The notes below the pieces were generated by a model. That model saw nothing but the letters and a program-made list of their open reading frames with translations. It searched no databases and was not told where the DNA came from. Made by a program: the position numbers and the translations under genes. Source: a virus. From it: a stretch of DNA of 22,903 bases. Below are positions 917-22,053 of the stretch, one piece after another (positions within the stretch are counted from its first letter, which is position 1; each line of letters begins with the position of its first letter). The stretch spans positions 1 through 22,903 of the IMG/VR virus record IMGVR_UViG_3300007363_000115; one strand, written 5' to 3'.

Positions 917-1564
917 ATGAAACCAATTTCTCAAATGGGATGCCCGTTCGAAGTCAAGGAGCTTTCCGAAACCGGCAGCTTCGAAGGCATCGCGTCGATG
1001 TATAACAATGTCGATCTTGGAGGCGACATTGTTGTTCAAGGCGCTTTCAAGGAGTTCAACAAAACCAAGGACGGCTCCATTCGCATTCTTGCCAATCACG
1101 ACACGCGCCAGCCTATCGGCAAAGGAAAAGTCGAGGACACGCCTGTCGGCTTGCTCATCAAAGGCCAACTGGAGCTTGCTGTCGGAAAGGCGCGAGAAAT
1201 TCACGCGCTGATGAAGTCCGGCATCATCGAAGGCCTCTCTATCGGTTACGACATCCTACCCAATGGCGAAGAGATTCGCGAAGATGGCATTCGATTGTTG
1301 AAGGGATTGAAGTTGTGGGAGGTGAGCACAACCGCATTCCCGATGAATCAAATGGCGCAGGTCTCAACAGTGAAAGAGATCGAGCGCGTGAAAAGTGTAA
1401 GAGAACTGGAAGACCTGTTGCGAGATGCCGCAGGTCTTTCGCGGACGCAAGCGAAGCTGCACGCTGGCGCGATCTGGAAGACCTTGACTCAGCGAGACGC
1501 TGACGACACGGTTGGAGAAGCAACGCAGCAAACGCTCGATATCCTCAAGCGTTTCCAATCTTAA
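917..1564 (+). CDS. HK97-type prohead protease (peptidase U35 family)
   Basis: This 215-residue protein should be the serine protease that removes the N-terminal scaffolding domain of the capsid protein inside the prohead and then degrades itself. The family signature is clear: FEGIASMYNNVDLGGDIVVQGAF near the N-terminus, the catalytic His in ANHD (His61) and the catalytic Ser in GLSIGY (Ser108), followed by a strand containing LKLWEVSTTAFPMN. Residues from about 155 to the end are charged and helical, as in relatives where this tail helps packing into the prohead. The ATG at 917 follows AAGGAG at 903-908. The gene lies directly before the major capsid gene, which is the usual order in HK97-like phages. 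Confidence 0.95.
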   Translation: MKPISQMGCPFEVKELSETGSFEGIASMYNNVDLGGDIVVQGAFKEFNKTKDGSIRILANHDTRQPIGKGKVEDTPVGLLIKGQLELAVGKAREIHALMKSGIIEGLSIGYDILPNGEEIREDGIRLLKGLKLWEVSTTAFPMNQMAQVSTVKEIERVKSVRELEDLLRDAAGLSRTQAKLHAGAIWKTLTQRDADDTVGEATQQTLDILKRFQS

Positions 1565-1587: not shown

Positions 1588-2832
1588 ATGCAATTCAATG
1601 CCAAAGAAATGTCCGAGCTGAACATCGCTCTGGAGAAGGCGTTCGCCGCCATGCAGGAGAACCTGAAGAAAGTCCAGGACACCGCCGACAATGCGCTCGA
1701 AGAAGTGCGCAAAGAAGGCACCTTGCATGGCAAGACCAATGATGCGCTGGCCGAGCTGGGCAAGAAAGGCGAAGTTCTGGCTGGCGACTTCAAAGGCTTG
1801 CGCGACCGTCTGGTCGAAGCTGAACAGAAACTCGCTGCACGCGGCCCGCAAGGTGATCCCGAGAAGGTGAAGTCCGTCGTCGAGATCATCACCGAATCCG
1901 TCGAATACAAGGCGGCACAAAAGCAAGGTCGGATGGATCCGGTGGAGGTCAAGTCGTTCCACAGCAAGGCCGCGATCCTGAACGCCACAGGCCAGAACCA
2001 ACCGCTGGTTCCCTCCCAACGGCTGGAAGGCGTGATCTCGCCCGCAGAGCAGCGCTTGTTCATCCGCGATCTGATCCCGCAAGCGGTCACGACCAGCAAC
2101 CTGATCGAGTTCGCGCGCGAGACGGCGTTCACCAACTCCGCGGCTCCCCAAGGAAGCGGCAGCTCGCCTGCCGAGACCGAGGGTCAACCGAAAGCCGAAT
2201 CCGCGCTTTCCTTCGACCTGGCAAACTCTCCGGTGATCACGCTGGCGCACTGGGTTCCGGCTTCGCGGCAAGTGCTGTCAGACGCGTCGATGCTGCAAGG
2301 TCACATCAGCGGTCGCCTGCTCTACGGCCTGAAGCTGGTCGAGGAGCAAAATCTGTTGACCGCAAACGGCACTGCAGGCCAGCTCACCGGCCTGAACAGC
2401 TCCGCCGCAGCCTACAACCGCGGCTCCACCGGCGACACCATCCTGGACACGCTCCTCAAAGCGATGCTCCAGGTTTCGCTCTCGAACTATGAGGCGAGCG
2501 CGTATGTCCTTCACCCGACCGACTGGTTCAGCGCAATGCTGCTGAAGGACACGCAAGGTCGTTACCTGTTCAGCGACCCTCAGTCGATGGTGCAACCGCG
2601 TGTCTGGTCCAAGCCGGTCGTGGCTTCGCAAACCCAAACGCAGGGCAAGTTCCTGTGTGGTGCGTTCAACCTTGGCGCACAAATCTGGGATCGCGAAGAC
2701 GCAACGGTGCGTATCAGCGAGAACGTCAACGACCACTTCATTCGCAACATGGTCGCGATCCTCGCCGAAGAGCGTCTGGCGCTGACGATCTATCGCGCCT
2801 CCGCCTTCGTTTACGGCAACACGGCTGGCTGA
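1588..2832 (+). CDS. Major capsid protein, HK97 gp5-like
   Basis: A 414-residue capsid subunit. Residues 1 to about 100 are strongly charged and helical with heptad-like spacing, matching the HK97 delta domain that acts as an internal scaffold and is removed by the protease encoded just upstream. No separate scaffold gene lies next to it, which fits. The mature part has the HK97 fold pattern: RLFIRDLIPQAVTTSN, then WVPASRQVLSDA, then a GLNS and LHPTDWFSAM region, and a C-terminal segment ending LAEERLALTIYRASAFVYGNT. The start follows AGGAGA at 1575-1580. Codon use is cleaner and more GC-ending than in neighbouring genes, as expected for the most abundant virion protein. A terminator hairpin follows. 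Confidence 0.95.
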   Translation: MQFNAKEMSELNIALEKAFAAMQENLKKVQDTADNALEEVRKEGTLHGKTNDALAELGKKGEVLAGDFKGLRDRLVEAEQKLAARGPQGDPEKVKSVVEIITESVEYKAAQKQGRMDPVEVKSFHSKAAILNATGQNQPLVPSQRLEGVISPAEQRLFIRDLIPQAVTTSNLIEFARETAFTNSAAPQGSGSSPAETEGQPKAESALSFDLANSPVITLAHWVPASRQVLSDASMLQGHISGRLLYGLKLVEEQNLLTANGTAGQLTGLNSSAAAYNRGSTGDTILDTLLKAMLQVSLSNYEASAYVLHPTDWFSAMLLKDTQGRYLFSDPQSMVQPRVWSKPVVASQTQTQGKFLCGAFNLGAQIWDREDATVRISENVNDHFIRNMVAILAEERLALTIYRASAFVYGNTAG

Positions 2833-2858
2833 GCGTCGTTTATTTTTTGCGATGCTTT

Positions 2859-2887
2859 GAGAGGGCGCTTCGGCGTCCTCTCATTTT
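2859..2887 (+). terminator. UUCG-capped hairpin terminator after the capsid gene
   Basis: A 10-base-pair stem (2859-2868 with 2873-2882, one G-U pair) closes the very stable tetraloop C(UUCG)G at 2869-2872. It is followed by ATTTT at 2883-2887. This has the form of a rho-independent terminator with a short T-tract. It lies 27 bases after the capsid stop and only three bases before the next start codon, so it would reduce transcription of the sugar cassette relative to the capsid. The T-tract is short, so partial read-through is likely; some read-through seems needed because no obvious promoter follows. Confidence 0.8.
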
Positions 2888-2890
2888 GCG

Positions 2891-3769
2891 ATGACTGATA
2901 AAGTTCAACTTCGCGTAGTAAAGGCAATTCAATGCTCTGTTTGGACAGAGCCAAATCGAATTGCCGGAGATGTCGTTTGGGTTTCAAGAGACGGCGCAGA
3001 ACAGCTTGTGAAGTTAGGCTTGTGCGAGTATTTTGGCAATGCATTTGAGTCGGCAGAATCAGGCCCATTGCGAAAGTCGCTCGGTTGGCCTCTTGATCGA
3101 TTTTCTTGGGTCTCGAAAGATTGGGATGGAGAAACTGTTGCATGCATCGCCAGCGGCCCATCGACAACAGAGGAAGACTTGCACAGGGTAAAGAGCCACG
3201 GCATAAAAGCCATTGTCGTGAATGATATGTATTTGGTCGCTCCTTGGGCAGACGTTGTGTATTTTGCAGACTGCAGGTGGTGGGAGTGGCATCATAACGG
3301 CGTTGCAAAAAAATGGGATTGGATGGAATTTACCGCCGAAGAACAGCGCGCTGCATTTGGCGCGTTCGCAGGACAAAAGTGCACCATCGCTAATACAGGC
3401 ATGCTTGTGGGCGACCCAGAAGTATTCATGTTAAAGAATGGCGGGCATCTTGGGCTTTCAGAAAGCAAAGACGCGCTGTTCACCGGAAGCAATTCTGGGT
3501 ATCAAGCAATTAACTTGGCTTGCCTTGCTGGAGCCAAAAAAATTCTGTTGTTGGGATACGATCTTGGCTTCCACAAAAACAGATCTCATTCGCACAACGG
3601 CCATCCGATTAAAAATACATCAGCAGCTCATTATTCTGGCTGGGCTTCTAACTTTTTCTCGCTGGTTGAGCCTTTGGAAAGGTTAGGAATTGAAGTCATC
3701 AATTGCTCAAGGCAAACAACGCTGAAGGCATTCAGGAGAGAGGCGCTTGAAAGCATACTGCCTGATTAG
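2891..3769 (+). CDS. MptE/DUF115-like protein with an added N-terminal domain
   Basis: A 292-residue protein. From about residue 80 it shows the pattern of DUF115 proteins related to MptE (6-hydroxymethylpterin diphosphokinase) and to motility-accessory factor proteins: ASGPS at 87-91, VNDMYLVAPWADVVYFAD with Asp127, TGSNSGYQAINLA at 198-210 and LLGYDL at 220-225. In bacteria such proteins are tied to sugar transfer, including flagellin glycosylation. Residues 1-50 look like a separate small domain (a GDVVWVS segment, then AEQLVKLGLCEY) of a kind I have seen in short proteins encoded near phage capsid genes. A His-rich loop (RSHSHNGHP, 231-239) follows the LLGYDL strand. No clear Shine-Dalgarno sequence precedes the ATG, which sits just behind the terminator hairpin. 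The substrate is unknown. It heads an overlapping cassette of sugar genes. Confidence 0.75.
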   Translation: MTDKVQLRVVKAIQCSVWTEPNRIAGDVVWVSRDGAEQLVKLGLCEYFGNAFESAESGPLRKSLGWPLDRFSWVSKDWDGETVACIASGPSTTEEDLHRVKSHGIKAIVVNDMYLVAPWADVVYFADCRWWEWHHNGVAKKWDWMEFTAEEQRAAFGAFAGQKCTIANTGMLVGDPEVFMLKNGGHLGLSESKDALFTGSNSGYQAINLACLAGAKKILLLGYDLGFHKNRSHSHNGHPIKNTSAAHYSGWASNFFSLVEPLERLGIEVINCSRQTTLKAFRREALESILPD

Positions 3770-4556
3770 AAGCAATCCTTGGTATCGCAGAGAGGCATTT
3801 CTTTCTGGGTTGCGCAAGGCAGGCCATGTGGCGATGAATGGAAGGCCTGATCGTTTCGACGAGCAAACTTTGCTGCTGATCTGGAACCGATATGGGGAAG
3901 ATCACGCGCTCGCTACGCGAGTCGAAGCTGCAGGCGGCAGGGTGCTTGTTGCCGAGAACGGATACCTCGGGATCGGCGGCAGCTCTCCGAAGTTCGATGT
4001 TCATCCGAATGGCCCACAACCACACCACTACTATGCGCTGGCCGAAGGTTGGCACAACGGCGGAGGTCGCTGGCGTGTCGGTCCTTGGGATAGATTCAAA
4101 GCGCTTTGTGTAAACCCGAAGCCTTATCGCAACACTGGAGATTACATCCTCGTTTGTCCAAATCGCTCGTTTGGCGTTCAAGGCAGAATGATGCCGATCG
4201 ATTGGACTGAAGACACAGTCGCGCGATTGAAATTGAATCCGATGGGGTTGCCTGTAAGGGTTCGCGCTCATCCTGGAAATTTCGCACCGAAGGTTCCTCT
4301 CGCAGAAGATCTTGCAGGCGCAGCCGCTGTTGTGATATGGTCTTCTGGCGCTGGAGTGCATGCGCTCGTTTCTGGGATTCCTGTCGTTGCGCTGGCTCCA
4401 TTTTGGATTTGCAGGACGGCAGCATTCACCTCGATAGACGGCGGTTCAGAAATGCCGCCAGATCGAACGCAAGCTCTTCATTACATGGCATGGGCGCAAT
4501 GGCGCGTTGACGAAATAGAAAGCGGGGAAGCGTTTGTTAGTCTGCTACGATCGTAA
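3747..4556 (+). CDS. Glycosyltransferase-like protein, first of a related pair
   Basis: A 269-residue protein started by TTG at 3747. The start is supported by AGGAGAGAGG at 3734-3743 and overlaps the previous gene by 23 bases. The C-terminal half has a nucleotide-sugar-binding pattern like that of GT-B enzymes and capsule polysaccharide (KpsC/KpsS-like) transferases: RAHPG at 173-177, then VVIWSSGAG ending at 203, then HALVSGIPVVAL. The N-terminal half lacks a clear catalytic motif; it contains LLLIWNRYG and VAENGYLGIGG, which are typical of phage and environmental proteins of this type. It shares its C-terminal plan, including a closing QW-E-G-F pattern, with the next gene. The sugar donor and acceptor cannot be read from the sequence. 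Activity is inferred from fold-level resemblance only. Confidence 0.65.
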   Translation: MKAYCLIRSNPWYRREAFLSGLRKAGHVAMNGRPDRFDEQTLLLIWNRYGEDHALATRVEAAGGRVLVAENGYLGIGGSSPKFDVHPNGPQPHHYYALAEGWHNGGGRWRVGPWDRFKALCVNPKPYRNTGDYILVCPNRSFGVQGRMMPIDWTEDTVARLKLNPMGLPVRVRAHPGNFAPKVPLAEDLAGAAAVVIWSSGAGVHALVSGIPVVALAPFWICRTAAFTSIDGGSEMPPDRTQALHYMAWAQWRVDEIESGEAFVSLLRS

Positions 4557-5289
4557 CAAGGCAAAGTCCAGAAGGATCGCGTCTGCATTCGCGATCGGCT
4601 GCGGCGGGCAGCTTGTCGAAGCTAGCGGACTCGACGTCCGCGGCAAGGACATTGCGTTTTACGGCCTGTCCTCTGGAACGATTCCGCTTTACACTTCTCG
4701 GGAGAAGGCGAAGTCGTTCAGGTATATAGACAATGCATATTTTGACGGACAAAGAGGAACGCACTTCAGGGTGACGCTTGGCGCTTTGCAATGCTCTCTG
4801 TTGCAGCAACCGAATTTCCAAAGGTTGAAGTCCAGCGGCATAGAAATTCAACCTTGGAAGAAGACAGGCAAGAACGTTCTCCTTGTCGTTCAAAGTGACG
4901 AATATATGAGATTGGTCGCAAAACAGCAAAGTGAAATTTGGACAACGAGCGTGATGAAGTTGATTCGCAAGAACACAGACAGAAGCTTGGTCATTATGCC
5001 TTGGGTTAGGGATAAAATCCGCGCCGCAACAATTTTCGCTGAAGCGTTGAATGACGCTTGGGCTGTTGTTGTGCATTCATCCTCTGCTGGTTGCGAAGCG
5101 CTGCGCCGCGGCATTCCAGTTTTCGCATTGGAGGGCTGCGCAGCCTCTCCTCTTGCGCTGAATGATCTGCGGCTTTTGGAGTCTCCATTCTATCCGGAGA
5201 ACAGGGAGGATTGGGCCGCTGGATTGGTGAATTGCCAGTGGACGCTTGAGGAATTTAAAGAGGGAAAATTTCTGCATGGGAATGGGTGA
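4534..5289 (+). CDS. Glycosyltransferase-like protein, second of a related pair
   Basis: A 251-residue protein that again starts with TTG, at 4534, with GGGGAAG at 4524-4530 before it and a 23-base overlap with the previous gene. Residues 64-84 contain a YIDNAYFDGQRG and FRVTLGAL pattern. The C-terminal half has AWAVVVHSSSAG ending at 186, CEALRRGIPVFAL and a closing CQWTLEEFKEGKFL. The SSSAG-x-EAL-x-x-GIPV pattern matches the donor-binding end of GT-B and capsule-type transferases. The closing segment corresponds to AQWRVDEIESGEAF of the previous protein, so the two look like diverged duplicates. Substrate unknown. The low similarity of the N-terminal halves suggests different acceptors, which is inference. 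Confidence 0.65.
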   Translation: MLVCYDRNKAKSRRIASAFAIGCGGQLVEASGLDVRGKDIAFYGLSSGTIPLYTSREKAKSFRYIDNAYFDGQRGTHFRVTLGALQCSLLQQPNFQRLKSSGIEIQPWKKTGKNVLLVVQSDEYMRLVAKQQSEIWTTSVMKLIRKNTDRSLVIMPWVRDKIRAATIFAEALNDAWAVVVHSSSAGCEALRRGIPVFALEGCAASPLALNDLRLLESPFYPENREDWAAGLVNCQWTLEEFKEGKFLHGNG

Positions 5290-6037
5290 CGAATTGATGG
5301 CGGCAGGGGATGCCGAGGCGTTGTTCCGCAAGGCCGGAAAGCGCGTCAAGATCCTCGACAAGAATGGCCGTCCGCGCTGGCATGCGCTTTGGGAAGGCAA
5401 TCCCGCAATCGCTATGCCGGAGGAAACCGGCGATTTTGCTTCAATCGTGAATGGGTCGAGTTGTCGCCCTTACCACGTGCGCCACACGGACAGGCAGTGG
5501 TTTTACAACTTTTCTTATCGGCCAAATTCAGCGACAATTCAGTTCACTGATGAGGAGCTTGCGTTCGGAGCGAAAGTTACAGGCAAGATTGTGATTGAGC
5601 CAAACATCAAGCAGAACGCTTCGCCCAACAAGCAGTGGGGGCAGGAGCGCTGGCGCAAATTGGCCTCGTTGCTGGCCAAGGATGGCCACAGGCTGGCTCA
5701 GCTTGGCGAGTCCGGAGCTCGGCCCATCCCCGAGGTCGAATTTGTGGCCTCGCCAAGCTTCCGCCACGCCGCGGCTGCGTTAAAGTTCGCCAAAGGCGCG
5801 TTCCTGCCAGAAGGCGGATTGCATCATGCCGCGGCTGCGGTTGGATTGCCAGCCGTTGTCATTTTTGGCGGATTTACCCCGATCGAATTGACTGGCTATT
5901 CGCTGCACAAAAACATTGGCGTTTCTGGCAAAGATGCTTGTGGGCTGCGCGTGCCTTGCGACCATTGCGCCAAAATCATGAGCTCGATTACGCCAGAATT
6001 CGTATTCGAACAGGGAAGGAGATTTTTGAATGACTAA
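5276..6037 (+). CDS. Short GT9 (heptosyltransferase-like) glycosyltransferase
   Basis: A 253-residue protein with the ending typical of glycosyltransferase family 9: GAFLPEGGLHHAAAAVGLPAVVIFGG (residues 175-199), then a Cys-rich end, CGLRVPCDHC and ITPE. In family members this region binds the nucleotide sugar (ADP-heptose in lipopolysaccharide synthesis). It is shorter than typical bacterial GT9 enzymes of about 340 residues, with a reduced N-terminal domain that begins MGMGDELMAAGDAEALF. I chose the ATG at 5276, with AGAGGGA at 5259-5265 before it; a TTG at 5246 would overlap the previous gene further and has no good binding site. The gene overlaps its neighbours by 14 and 8 bases. It could act on a phage-encoded or host sugar; the donor is not shown. 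Confidence 0.8.
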   Translation: MGMGDELMAAGDAEALFRKAGKRVKILDKNGRPRWHALWEGNPAIAMPEETGDFASIVNGSSCRPYHVRHTDRQWFYNFSYRPNSATIQFTDEELAFGAKVTGKIVIEPNIKQNASPNKQWGQERWRKLASLLAKDGHRLAQLGESGARPIPEVEFVASPSFRHAAAALKFAKGAFLPEGGLHHAAAAVGLPAVVIFGGFTPIELTGYSLHKNIGVSGKDACGLRVPCDHCAKIMSSITPEFVFEQGRRFLND

Positions 6038-6746
6038 GGACGTTGGCGTTCTGGTGGATGGGGTTTGGTTGCCTTCGACAGAGTTGCATCTCGCGGACAT
6101 GATGCGCGGCAAGCGCAGGCAAGTCATCGACGGCAAAGCCACATATCAGAAGCACAAGCTCGATGCATGCTTGGAGTTGTTGCCGAAGAATCGTCGTCGC
6201 GGCGTGCTGGACATCGGAGCGCATGTCGGGCTGTGGTCGATGTGGCTGGTGAACGAGTTCGATTTTCTGCACGCAGTCGAGCCTGTTCCTGAGCATCGCG
6301 AGCTCTTCGAAAGAAACCTTGCCGGCAAGCACTATGCGTTGTATCCGGTTGCGCTTGGGGAAGCTGAAGGCGTTGTTGACATCGAGATACCGCTGGAAAC
6401 GACAGGCAACGCTCACATCGCAATCGGCAAGCGCCACCCTGGCACTCGGCATGTTCCGAATCCTGACGCGCAGCGCGTCGTCAAAGGCATCAAGATGCTC
6501 CGGCTGGACGCGTTCGATCTGCACGACATTGATTTTGTGAAGATCGATGTCGAGGGATTCGAACGTGCAGTTGTTGCTGGCGGCGAAACATTTTTCAAGT
6601 TGAATCGACCGCTGGTGATTGTCGAGCAGAAAGGCAACGACAGCGCTTACGGCGACGCGCCAAATGCAGCCGTTGCGCTGTTGGAATCTTGGGGTGCGAG
6701 AACGCGCCGTGTGATGGCCGGTGATTTCATCTTGAGTTGGGATTGA
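6030..6746 (+). CDS. FkbM-family SAM-dependent methyltransferase
   Basis: A 238-residue protein with a class I methyltransferase fold of the FkbM type. The SAM-binding motif VLDIGAHVG is at 59-67, the acidic ribose-binding residue is Glu84 in AVEP, and the family signature FVKIDVEGFE is at 169-178. FkbM proteins usually methylate hydroxyl groups of sugars or polyketides. Here the likely target is a glycan built by the four preceding gene products, which is inferred from context. The ATG at 6030 follows AAGGAG at 6016-6021 and overlaps the preceding gene by eight bases. It is the last gene of the cassette; the head-tail connector gene starts four bases after its stop, so the cassette is joined smoothly to the structural operon. 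Confidence 0.9.
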   Translation: MTKDVGVLVDGVWLPSTELHLADMMRGKRRQVIDGKATYQKHKLDACLELLPKNRRRGVLDIGAHVGLWSMWLVNEFDFLHAVEPVPEHRELFERNLAGKHYALYPVALGEAEGVVDIEIPLETTGNAHIAIGKRHPGTRHVPNPDAQRVVKGIKMLRLDAFDLHDIDFVKIDVEGFERAVVAGGETFFKLNRPLVIVEQKGNDSAYGDAPNAAVALLESWGARTRRVMAGDFILSWD

Positions 6747-6750
6747 CGCC

Positions 6751-7380
6751 ATGAAGCCAAACATCGTCGTCGTTGATGCGCCAGCGTTCGAGCCTGTTTC
6801 TCTTGCGGACGCGCGGTCTTGGGTCGGGGTAGAGGCGGACGACACAGAGCACACCATAAAGCTCTCCATGCTGATTGCCGCGGCAAGGATGCACGCGGAA
6901 AACCTCACTCGCAGGGCATTCATTCAACGCACGTTGCGAGCGGAGTTTGACGGTTGGCCTTGCGGCCGACCCATTCAGCTTCCATTCCCTCCGATGGCCA
7001 GCGTTCAAAGCGTGAAGTATCGCGACACCAGCGGCGACCTTCAAACGCTTGATCCGGCTCTTTATGAGGTGCACGGCGGAGATCTCTCGCTTGTGGTTGC
7101 TCCGGTTGGCGGTGCTGTTTGGCCTTCGGCTTGCTCGGCACCGAACGCCATCCAAGTGACCTATATCGCAGGTTATGACGCTGCAGAGGCATCTCCTCTG
7201 GATGAGGCAGCAGCTCAAGCAAACATCCCTGACGCATTGAAGCTCTGGATGCAGACTCGTGTTGCCACGCTTTTTGAGCAGCGGGAGCAGTTTGCAATCG
7301 GGATATCGATCGCAACTTTGCCGCACGACTACGTTGACGGCTTGCTGGATCCGCTTATCGCGGCTGAGAGGCTTTTTTGA
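6751..7380 (+). CDS. Head-tail connector protein, gp6/phiE125 gp8 type
   Basis: A 209-residue adaptor protein expected to form a ring under the portal at the head vertex. The helical start (SLADARSWVGVEADDTEHTIKLSMLIAAARMHAENLTRRAF) is the usual opening of this family, followed by the LPFPPMASVQSVKYRDTSG strand region and TYIAGYD. The C-terminal helix (DALKLWMQTRVATLFEQRE) is also typical. The extended version with the beta domain corresponds to the phiE125 gp8 subgroup. The Shine-Dalgarno sequence is weak. The gene lies right after the sugar cassette; in most related phages it comes closely after the capsid gene, which makes the cassette look like an insertion. Confidence 0.9.
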   Translation: MKPNIVVVDAPAFEPVSLADARSWVGVEADDTEHTIKLSMLIAAARMHAENLTRRAFIQRTLRAEFDGWPCGRPIQLPFPPMASVQSVKYRDTSGDLQTLDPALYEVHGGDLSLVVAPVGGAVWPSACSAPNAIQVTYIAGYDAAEASPLDEAAAQANIPDALKLWMQTRVATLFEQREQFAIGISIATLPHDYVDGLLDPLIAAERLF

Positions 7381-21087: not shown

Positions 21088-21385
21088 GGAATTGCTCGAA
21101 CAGAAAGTCCCATTGTCCCTCGCCGCGGGTTTTGTCGGAATGTTCCTGTGGGCGTGGTTTGAGTTTGTTCACGCGGAGGACTTTACAAGGTATCAGCGTG
21201 GGGTCGAGGTGCGAATCCTGACCCAACAGAAACAAACGCTAGAGACCGAGGTCATGAAACTCGAGGTCAAGCAACAGGCAATGCCCAGATCCTTCACCCC
21301 TGTTGATTCCGCAATGTTGAAGAAGCAGCGGGAGACGTTGAATGAAGTCAACGGCGAACTGAAACTCCTGCGGGAGAAAAAATGA
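21074..21385 (+). CDS. Single-span membrane protein with coiled coil
   Basis: A 103-residue protein. The ATG at 21074 is chosen because AAGGAG at 21060-21065 precedes it, although the same frame is open much further upstream across the previous gene. One membrane segment (VPLSLAAGFVGMFLWAWFEFV) is followed by a long helical region with Gln, Lys and Glu repeats (RILTQQKQTLETEVMKLEVKQQAM and LKKQRETLNEVNGELKLLREKK). This is an i-spanin-like layout, although the true Rz-like gene lies further on. Its function is unknown. The stop overlaps the next start (ATGA). Confidence 0.6.
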   Translation: MPIPKELLEQKVPLSLAAGFVGMFLWAWFEFVHAEDFTRYQRGVEVRILTQQKQTLETEVMKLEVKQQAMPRSFTPVDSAMLKKQRETLNEVNGELKLLREKK

Positions 21386-22053
21386 TACGGGTTTTTATTG
21401 GCTACGATCCGCGGGAAGCGGAGGCGTTCTGGGTGTTGTCGCACAGCATACAGAGGTTGACGTCCGTCCCTGTATCAATCACGCCGCTTGCACTCCCGCA
21501 ACTGTCGTCCGTCTTGACGCGGGAGCGGCACCCGTTGCAGTCGACCGATTTTTCCTTCTCGAGATTTTTGGTTCCGTGGTTGAGCGACTTCGCGGGCTGG
21601 TCCCTGTTTATCGACTGCGATATGTTGGCCCTGCGGGACTTCAAGGAATTGTGGCGACTTCGGGACGAGAAGAAAGCCGTGATGGTGGTCAAACACAACC
21701 ACGTTCCGAAGGAGACCACGAAGTTCTTGGGCGAGCCGCAGACGATGTATGCGAAAAAGAATTGGTCGAGTGTCATGCTGTTCAACAACGCCAAGTGCTT
21801 CAATCTTAGTCCTTGGGTGATTGACACCGCTGACGGCCTGACGCTGCATCAGTTCAAATGGCTCGAGGATGAAGAGCTGATAGGCGAGCTGCCTTCGGAG
21901 TGGAATCACCTCGTTGGATACGACGCCCCGAGAAAAGACGTGGCTCTCGTTCACTATACGCTCGGTGGCCCGTATTTCAAGGAGCACCGAGGATGTGAGT
22001 ACTCGGAAGAGTGGTTTGCGGAGAAAAAATTGCTGACCGGAGATGCGTCATGA
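21382..22053 (+). CDS. GT8-like glycosyltransferase in the lysis module
   Basis: A 223-residue protein with a GT-A fold pattern. It begins IRVFIGYDPREAEAFWVLSHSI, has the SFSRFLVPWLSDFAGWSLFIDCDM region with the metal-binding motif DCD at 78-80, then AVMVVKHNHVP, KNWSSVMLFN and a closing ALVHYTLGGPYF, all typical of phage and environmental GT8-like enzymes. Such enzymes move a sugar from a nucleotide donor. The gene is wedged between a membrane protein and Rz with ATGA overlaps at both ends and uses GGGAG at 21372-21376. It is not related in sequence to the cassette at 2891-6746. Sugar and acceptor are unknown; modification of virion protein, lipopolysaccharide or teichoic-like polymers are all possible. 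Confidence 0.85.
   Translation: MIRVFIGYDPREAEAFWVLSHSIQRLTSVPVSITPLALPQLSSVLTRERHPLQSTDFSFSRFLVPWLSDFAGWSLFIDCDMLALRDFKELWRLRDEKKAVMVVKHNHVPKETTKFLGEPQTMYAKKNWSSVMLFNNAKCFNLSPWVIDTADGLTLHQFKWLEDEELIGELPSEWNHLVGYDAPRKDVALVHYTLGGPYFKEHRGCEYSEEWFAEKKLLTGDAS

Follow-up and report, generated by a model that had tools for sequence, protein, structure and literature searches.

A recurrent cassette of glycosyltransferases and a methyltransferase in the head module of tailed phages as a candidate pathway for virion glycosylation

The IMG/VR virus record IMGVR_UViG_3300007363_000115 (22,903 bases, analysed at its whole length, referred to below as the window and treated as a fragment) carries five overlapping open reading frames (ORFs; 2891-3769, 3747-4556, 4534-5289, 5246-6037, and 6030-6746, all on the + strand) in the slot between its capsid and head-tail connector genes. 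They encode, in this order, a DUF115/GT42-like transferase, two glycosyltransferase-like proteins (GTa and GTb), a short GT9 enzyme, and an FkbM methyltransferase. This cassette is a real, widespread unit. It is read here, with moderate confidence, as a discrete accessory cassette by which a short methylated glycan would be made late in infection, on a virion protein and from host donors. An initial annotation, made from the sequence alone, had described the five genes, and all of them were found in the order and place that it gave; its count fell short by one, because a sixth member, a GT8-like gene (21382-22053), had been missed.

Recurrence and gene order

Hidden Markov models were built for the cassette families and for their structural neighbours, and all fetched loci were mapped. 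Alignments were needed as queries: single-protein scans of IMG/VR returned no relatives for query P0001 and one for P0002, and alignment-based scans returned 202 relatives for GTa and 210 for GT9; the DUF115 sequences were too varied to be scanned as a pattern. At least three cassette families occurred together in 118 non-redundant loci, the counts from which share ancestry and are not independent trials. The families lay on one strand in 116 of the 118 loci, across which the cassette proteins are about 30-40% identical. Wherever DUF115 could be paired with another member (21 to 69 loci for each pair), it came first; within the same set, GTa stood before GTb in a ratio of 75:2 and before GT8 in a ratio of 56:0. 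A conserved order in other phages, which the initial annotation had put forward as a check, was thereby found. Cassettes were situated between capsid and connector, between connector and head closure, between head closure and neck, or beside the tape measure gene. Where neighbours were visible, most lay within head-tail modules; 44 loci, too short or too diverged, were without a recognised structural neighbour.

The control consisted of loci collected by prohead protease alone, with at least 6 kb downstream (n=38). The cassette was present in two of these head modules, DUF115 together with the D3-type pair in one, and none of the families in 35; locus L180, counted among the 35, carries the D3-type pair. 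The capsid-connector slot is usually empty, as had been claimed. The same families in the same order in 118 loci, taken together with a slot that is usually empty in control head modules, place the cassette beyond chance.

Divergence was correlated among most cassette genes (Spearman 0.32-0.46; GTa-FkbM 0.14). It was uncorrelated with that of the protease or head-closure genes and correlated with that of the connector (0.40) and GP10 (0.26). Each of the five GTa matches in bacterial genome assemblies is accompanied by other cassette families. A further S-adenosylmethionine (SAM)-dependent methyltransferase family of about 190 residues (L048:2937-3506) was observed in 43 cassette loci, and in 41 of them it lay within the cassette; it is absent from the window.

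Layout of the window

The + strand encodes, in its head part, the prohead protease, HK97 capsid, the five overlapping sugar and methyl enzymes, head-tail connector, head closure, and neck, followed by the tail terminator, major tail protein, tape measure, and tail tip and fibre proteins, and at the right end by an endolysin, the GT8-like transferase, and an Rz-type spanin. The features on which the analysis draws are as follows:

917..1564, + strand: HK97-type prohead protease (TIGR01543, 7e-28; Pfam S78, 2.9e-22)
1588..2832, + strand: HK97-fold major capsid protein, left boundary of the slot (Pfam PF05065, 3.9e-43; phrog_10, 8e-68)
2858..2883, + strand: terminator-like RNA hairpin in the gap between capsid and cassette (11 bp stem, UUCG loop, short U-tract)
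2891..3769, + strand: DUF115/MptE-like, GT42-sialyltransferase-like transferase (phrog_4603, 1e-42)
3747..4556, + strand: GTa, predicted GT-B transferase of KpsC/WbbB fold with RxHP motif (AF2 model, Foldseek, motif conservation)
4534..5289, + strand: GTb, paralogue of GTa, same predicted fold, HP motif lost (AF2 model, Foldseek, hhalign)
5276..6037, + strand: short GT9, heptosyltransferase-like (Pfam GT9, profile, motifs; start set from homologues)
6030..6746, + strand: FkbM-family SAM-dependent methyltransferase (Pfam, TIGR01444, 2PY6, motif)
6751..7380, + strand: head-tail connector, right boundary of the slot (TIGR02215, 1.6e-19; phrog_442, 1.6e-24)
21382..22053, + strand: GT8-like GT-A glycosyltransferase (DxD), sixth member (phrog_28018, 8.5e-48)

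No tRNA or Rfam element was found in the window, so nothing within its bounds marks an integration-site cargo island. PADLOC returned nothing convincing on the window, its sole match being a weak one of mad2 to the methyltransferase.

Fold and active site of GTa and GTb

Neither GTa nor GTb reached the cut-off of any family in the profile scans of the window, in which a match to Pfam PF05159 was likewise not found. The two proteins are homologous to each other (hhalign profile-profile E 1e-45), as their initial description as related proteins had implied. Their AlphaFold2 (AF2) models, each computed from a 41-sequence alignment (mean predicted local distance difference test score 92.3 for GTa and 95.2 for GTb), fold as GT-B enzymes, and the glycosyltransferase folds anticipated for this pair were thus recovered. 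When searched against the PDB with Foldseek, GTa matched 6mgd (E 6.6e-7, probability 1.00) and GTb matched 8fux (E 3.5e-6, probability 1.00). The top PDB matches of both are KpsC, WbbB, and KrkA, all of them transferases of 3-deoxy-D-manno-oct-2-ulosonic acid (Kdo) that use cytidine monophosphate (CMP)-beta-Kdo. These are the only matches of GTb at E <= 0.001, and GTa adds three matches to other proteins, of low template modelling (TM) score, at this threshold; the TM scores to the Kdo transferases are moderate, about 0.5-0.56 at best. By sequence profile, GTa matched KpsC alone, and weakly (E 0.5).

Residues invariant in the 41 GTa sequences are E70-N71-Y73, R140, and R173-x-H175-P176. The last group contains the (K/R)xHP motif (R173, H175, and P176 each in 41/41), RxHP being the CMP-binding motif common to sialyltransferases and Kdo transferases (PMC12887879); the H and P of this motif are absent from GTb. 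Retaining Kdo transferases carry their catalytic nucleophile in a QxxxD motif (PMC12887879, PMC10148158). A manual alignment, guided by the strand-loop pattern and by the DQ dipeptide of the Caulobacter proteins, places N/Q/S139 and G143 (Gly in 40/41) of GTa at the equivalent positions; GTb has an aromatic residue there. The assignment of GTa as a true retaining Kdo transferase was rejected for want of this nucleophile. With QxxxD missing from both proteins and HP from GTb, they are kin of these enzymes by predicted fold only, and form new families on the Kdo-transferase fold, outside GT99, GT107, and GT140. They may be inverting enzymes or users of another donor.

GT9, FkbM, and GT8-like enzymes

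The GT9 protein scores above the Pfam cut-off for PF01075 (27.5 vs 22 bits), and its profile matches heptosyltransferase 1PSW in the PDB (5e-8). The EGG-x-HH motif is conserved (E179 in 40/41, G180 in 41/41, H183 in 38/41, and H184 in 41/41). The equivalogs for lipopolysaccharide (LPS) heptosyltransferases I and II (WaaC and WaaF) were missed by a wide distance (21.3 vs 185.3 bits and 13.2 vs 134.6 bits, respectively). The likeliest start is ATG 5276 (MGMGDELM) and not TTG 5246, since relatives begin with MGIGD. Close to the C-terminus, an invariant C-x5-C-x2-C motif (5939-5968; three cysteines in 41/41 of the phage GT9 alignment) is possibly a metal site.

The FkbM protein scored well above the cut-offs of Pfam PF05050 (54.7 vs 22.7 bits) and TIGR01444 (63.4 vs 37.7 bits) and matched 2PY6 (9e-7); D61, G63, H65, and G67 of its SAM-binding DxGxHxG motif are invariant (31/31). 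The Pfam scores of GT9 and FkbM, together with the folds of GTa and GTb, agree with the earlier proposal of a set that builds and methylates a glycan.

The GT8-like gene belongs to the cassette set and is here displaced beside the lysis genes; in many relatives it stands at the cassette end. It is homologous to CcrColossus gp129, the fourth gene of the Caulobacter jumbo-phage cassette (1e-30), scores just below the gathering score of Pfam GT8 PF01501 (22 vs 24.3 bits), and has a conserved DCD metal motif (D78 and D80 both in 40/40).

DUF115 protein and post-capsid hairpin

The first cassette protein does not reach the gathering cut-off of Pfam DUF115/MptE-like (PF01973; 23.1 vs 34.6 bits) and matches phrog_4603 at 1.1e-42; the name of that family, alpha-2,3-sialyltransferase, is an annotation label. 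Positions G-x-S, GxD, and histidine are strongly conserved in the alignment. The best sensible matches of its profile in the PDB are the GT42 sialyltransferases CstI and CstII, at weak scores (E 0.02-0.1). As these are the nearest sensible solved structures, the protein is read as a transferase and not as a pterin kinase, and MptE, which had been named as a functional parallel, was not upheld as such.

The DUF115 protein carries an extra N-terminal segment of about 70 residues (2891-3100). A small separate protein that resembles this segment was observed in the capsid-cassette gap of loci L063 and L141, which weakly suggests a gene fusion; a wider role of the segment as a widespread head domain is weakly supported, with three matches.

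Folding of 2833-2892 gives -30 kcal/mol (z -6.2), and the hairpin in it (2858-2883) lies just past the capsid stop codon. Similar hairpins after the capsid gene, many with T-tracts, were found in most of about 20 cassette loci examined. The consensus terminator scan did not list the 2858-2883 hairpin, and both promoter and terminator consensus scans performed at or below chance; the call therefore rests on folding and recurrence. The hairpin may act as a terminator, read-through of which would put the cassette under late control, expressed below the capsid.

Collagen-like genes as candidate acceptors

In 16 loci, the gene directly upstream of the cassette encodes a collagen-like protein, and no other gene of those loci does (L016:5857-6834, L039:7384-8340, L020:5825-6841, and 13 others). 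These proteins contain 8 to 87 consecutive GXY triplets, and one of them also has a weak CBM_5_12 match. Collagen-like genes were found in none of the 38 control loci. Since collagen-like proteins are glycosylated in other systems (BclA, mimivirus fibrils), they are candidate acceptors in the 16 loci.

Relatives in named phages

Caulobacter jumbo phages carry a contiguous DUF115-GTa-GTb-GT8-methyltransferase-GT9 cassette between tail and lysis genes. The methyltransferase within it is of another class (Methyltransf_23), and an FkbM homologue is encoded elsewhere in the same genomes, so that all six window families are present in this distant group (genomes of 280-327 kb). The head-tail module of Pseudomonas phages D3, PAJU2, and Psp6 contains a DUF115 gene, a remote GT9-like gene, and a methyltransferase gene, which in Psp6 occupy the capsid-connector slot; the D3-type GT9-like protein is related to GT9 only remotely (hhalign probability 78%).

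PmgO of E. coli phage P1 is homologous to the cassette DUF115 protein (hhalign 3e-35), as is HdmB of P7; PmgP is distantly DUF115-like, and PmgQ matches a PHROG glycosyltransferase family. The P1 genes pmgO, pmgP, and pmgQ, annotated as putative morphogenetic, thus resemble sugar enzymes, and the protein phosphatase gene ppp lies among them (L258:5944-8502). All three were scored nonessential in a CRISPR interference study (PMC10695390). The P7 counterparts are annotated as head morphogenesis genes, for which the depositors had already recorded similarity to D3 orf7.

Two further arrangements were observed. Phage DSL-LC06 (L006), with a circular genome of 29.8 kb, has about eight sugar and methyl enzyme genes, the rest being mostly structural or hypothetical. 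Pelagibacter phage Mosig (L008:9949-15783) has two FkbM-like methyltransferases, two GTb-like proteins, a putative sulfotransferase, and, among named phages, the nearest GT8 relative found (54.5% identity); this cluster adjoins nucleotide-metabolism genes and not structural ones.

Discussion

The computed part of the proposal comprises six enzyme families with conserved order and conserved active-site residues, mostly in head-tail modules of diverged tailed phages; the sugars, the acceptor, and the product are inferred. The transferases would draw activated sugars from the host pool in the cytoplasm: DUF115 and GTa/GTb might use a CMP-ulosonic acid (CMP-Kdo, for instance, or a CMP-nonulosonate), GT9 might use adenosine diphosphate (ADP)-heptose, and GT8 a nucleoside diphosphate-hexose. 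A short chain would be built on a virion surface protein, which from phage to phage may be the capsid, a tail fibre, a head decoration protein, or a collagen-like protein; FkbM would O-methylate this chain. The finished coat might protect the particle or alter what it adheres to. In the cassette, family profile scans recognised no gene for sugar-nucleotide synthesis, flippase, polymerase, or ligase, which makes a cytoplasmic location probable for acceptor and donor alike. Conserved motifs, the late structural site in unrelated lineages, and this lack of synthesis and export genes point to a short glycan built in the cytoplasm, for which a virion protein during assembly would be the simplest acceptor. 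That such an acceptor, one of those suggested in the initial annotation, is plausible follows also from the collagen-like genes directly upstream in 16 loci.

Several points weigh against this proposal. The loci were gathered through GTa or GT9 searches, which biases frequencies and conservation towards those genes. Absence of the QxxxD nucleophile from GTa and GTb, and of HP from GTb, makes Kdo uncertain as a donor, above all for GTb. The link of DUF115 to GT42 is weak, unrelated ferritin matches scoring alike. The association with collagen-like genes is small (13/74 vs 0/38, Fisher p = 0.004; 16/118 vs 0/38, Fisher p = 0.013) and includes no correction for common descent among the loci, and the window itself has no collagen-like gene; the capsid, a tail fibre, or another protein may be the acceptor in this phage.

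Remodelling of a host surface glycan (e.g., the LPS inner core), late or in lysogens, would block superinfection or keep released virions off debris. The Kdo and heptose chemistry of the inner core resembles the cassette enzyme families, KpsC/WbbB-type and heptosyltransferase-type folds work on LPS or capsule in bacteria, and temperate phages encode LPS-modifying transferases (PMC5537653). The genes lie, however, inside the late head-tail operon and not at a prophage end (in Caulobacter jumbo phages, at a tail/lysis site), late expression leaves little time for a surface change, and the missing flippase, polymerase, and ligase count here as well; we consider this explanation unlikely. A loose collection of cargo (moron) genes, unrelated and with no joint pathway, would suit a slot that tolerates insertion, and some relatives do carry other methyltransferases or subsets. 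The order kept across 118 diverged loci, the near-constant strand, and a divergence that is shared within the cassette and not with protease or head-closure genes leave it with very little probability. Glycosylation of phage DNA bases as hypermodification against restriction, a frequent use of phage glycosyltransferases (PMC12619734), is the most improbable of these explanations, because the annotations around the cassette in the named phages compared list neither a base hydroxylase nor modified-nucleotide genes, the small DSL-LC06 genome has several cassette families amid mostly structural annotated genes, and the window families lack matches to DNA glucosyltransferases and sit in a virion assembly module.

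A bolder form of the virion glycan proposal can be offered tentatively, and is doubtful as a whole: Gram-negative phages might divert the LPS inner-core precursors CMP-Kdo and ADP-heptose, by way of non-canonical KpsC-fold transferases, to a methylated, LPS-core-like virion coat, carried in some lineages by collagen-like head proteins, with P1 pmgO, pmgP, and pmgQ as a reduced form.

Phage-encoded virion glycosylation has so far been established for few phages, and no paper describing this cassette was found in open-access full text, subscription papers being largely outside that coverage. If the virion glycan proposal is true, particle glycosylation would be a common trait with a bearing on phage persistence, adsorption, and immune recognition. 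It offers a testable role for 'morphogenetic' genes of model phages that have long stood unassigned (P1 pmgO/pmgP/pmgQ and D3 orf7/12/13), and GTa and GTb add two new families to the glycosyltransferases with the Kdo-transferase fold, both without the known nucleophile.

Comparison with known systems

KpsC (GT107), WbbB (GT99), and KrkA (GT140) are the sole convincing structural neighbours of GTa and GTb, and GTa shares their CMP-binding motif; the cassette proteins differ from them in lacking the QxxxD nucleophile and a PF05159 match, and GTb in lacking HP. With WaaC and WaaF the cassette GT9 shares the family assignment, the EGG-x-HH motif, and the PDB profile match, whereas the solved enzymes are longer by about 70-95 residues, and the cassette protein has the invariant three-cysteine motif and sits in a phage late operon. 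The DUF115 protein has in common with GT42 enzymes (CstI/CstII) and the DUF115/Maf flagellin nonulosonate transferases a GxGPS-type N-terminal motif, G-x-D, and conserved histidines; it differs in its weak matches, its MptE-like score below the Pfam cut-off, and the lack of a flagellar context.

The P1 pmgO-pmgP-ppp-pmgQ and P7 hdmB-hdmC-ppp-hdmD genes share with the cassette a DUF115 homologue, glycosyltransferase-like genes, and a tail-gene neighbourhood, here with C1 operators, but none of GTa, GTb, GT9, or FkbM is annotated among them. Phage XacN1 has been found to contain glycoproteins (PMC5852040). In mycobacteriophages, virion proteins are decorated by phage-encoded glycosyltransferases, according to the summaries of Freeman et al. 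2023 given in PMC12619734 and PMC11256854. The hosts there are mycobacterial, and the likeness is drawn from these summaries; for Maravista, which is related to the glycosylated phages, PMC11256854 places the transferases near the 3' end of the genome and not in the capsid-connector slot.

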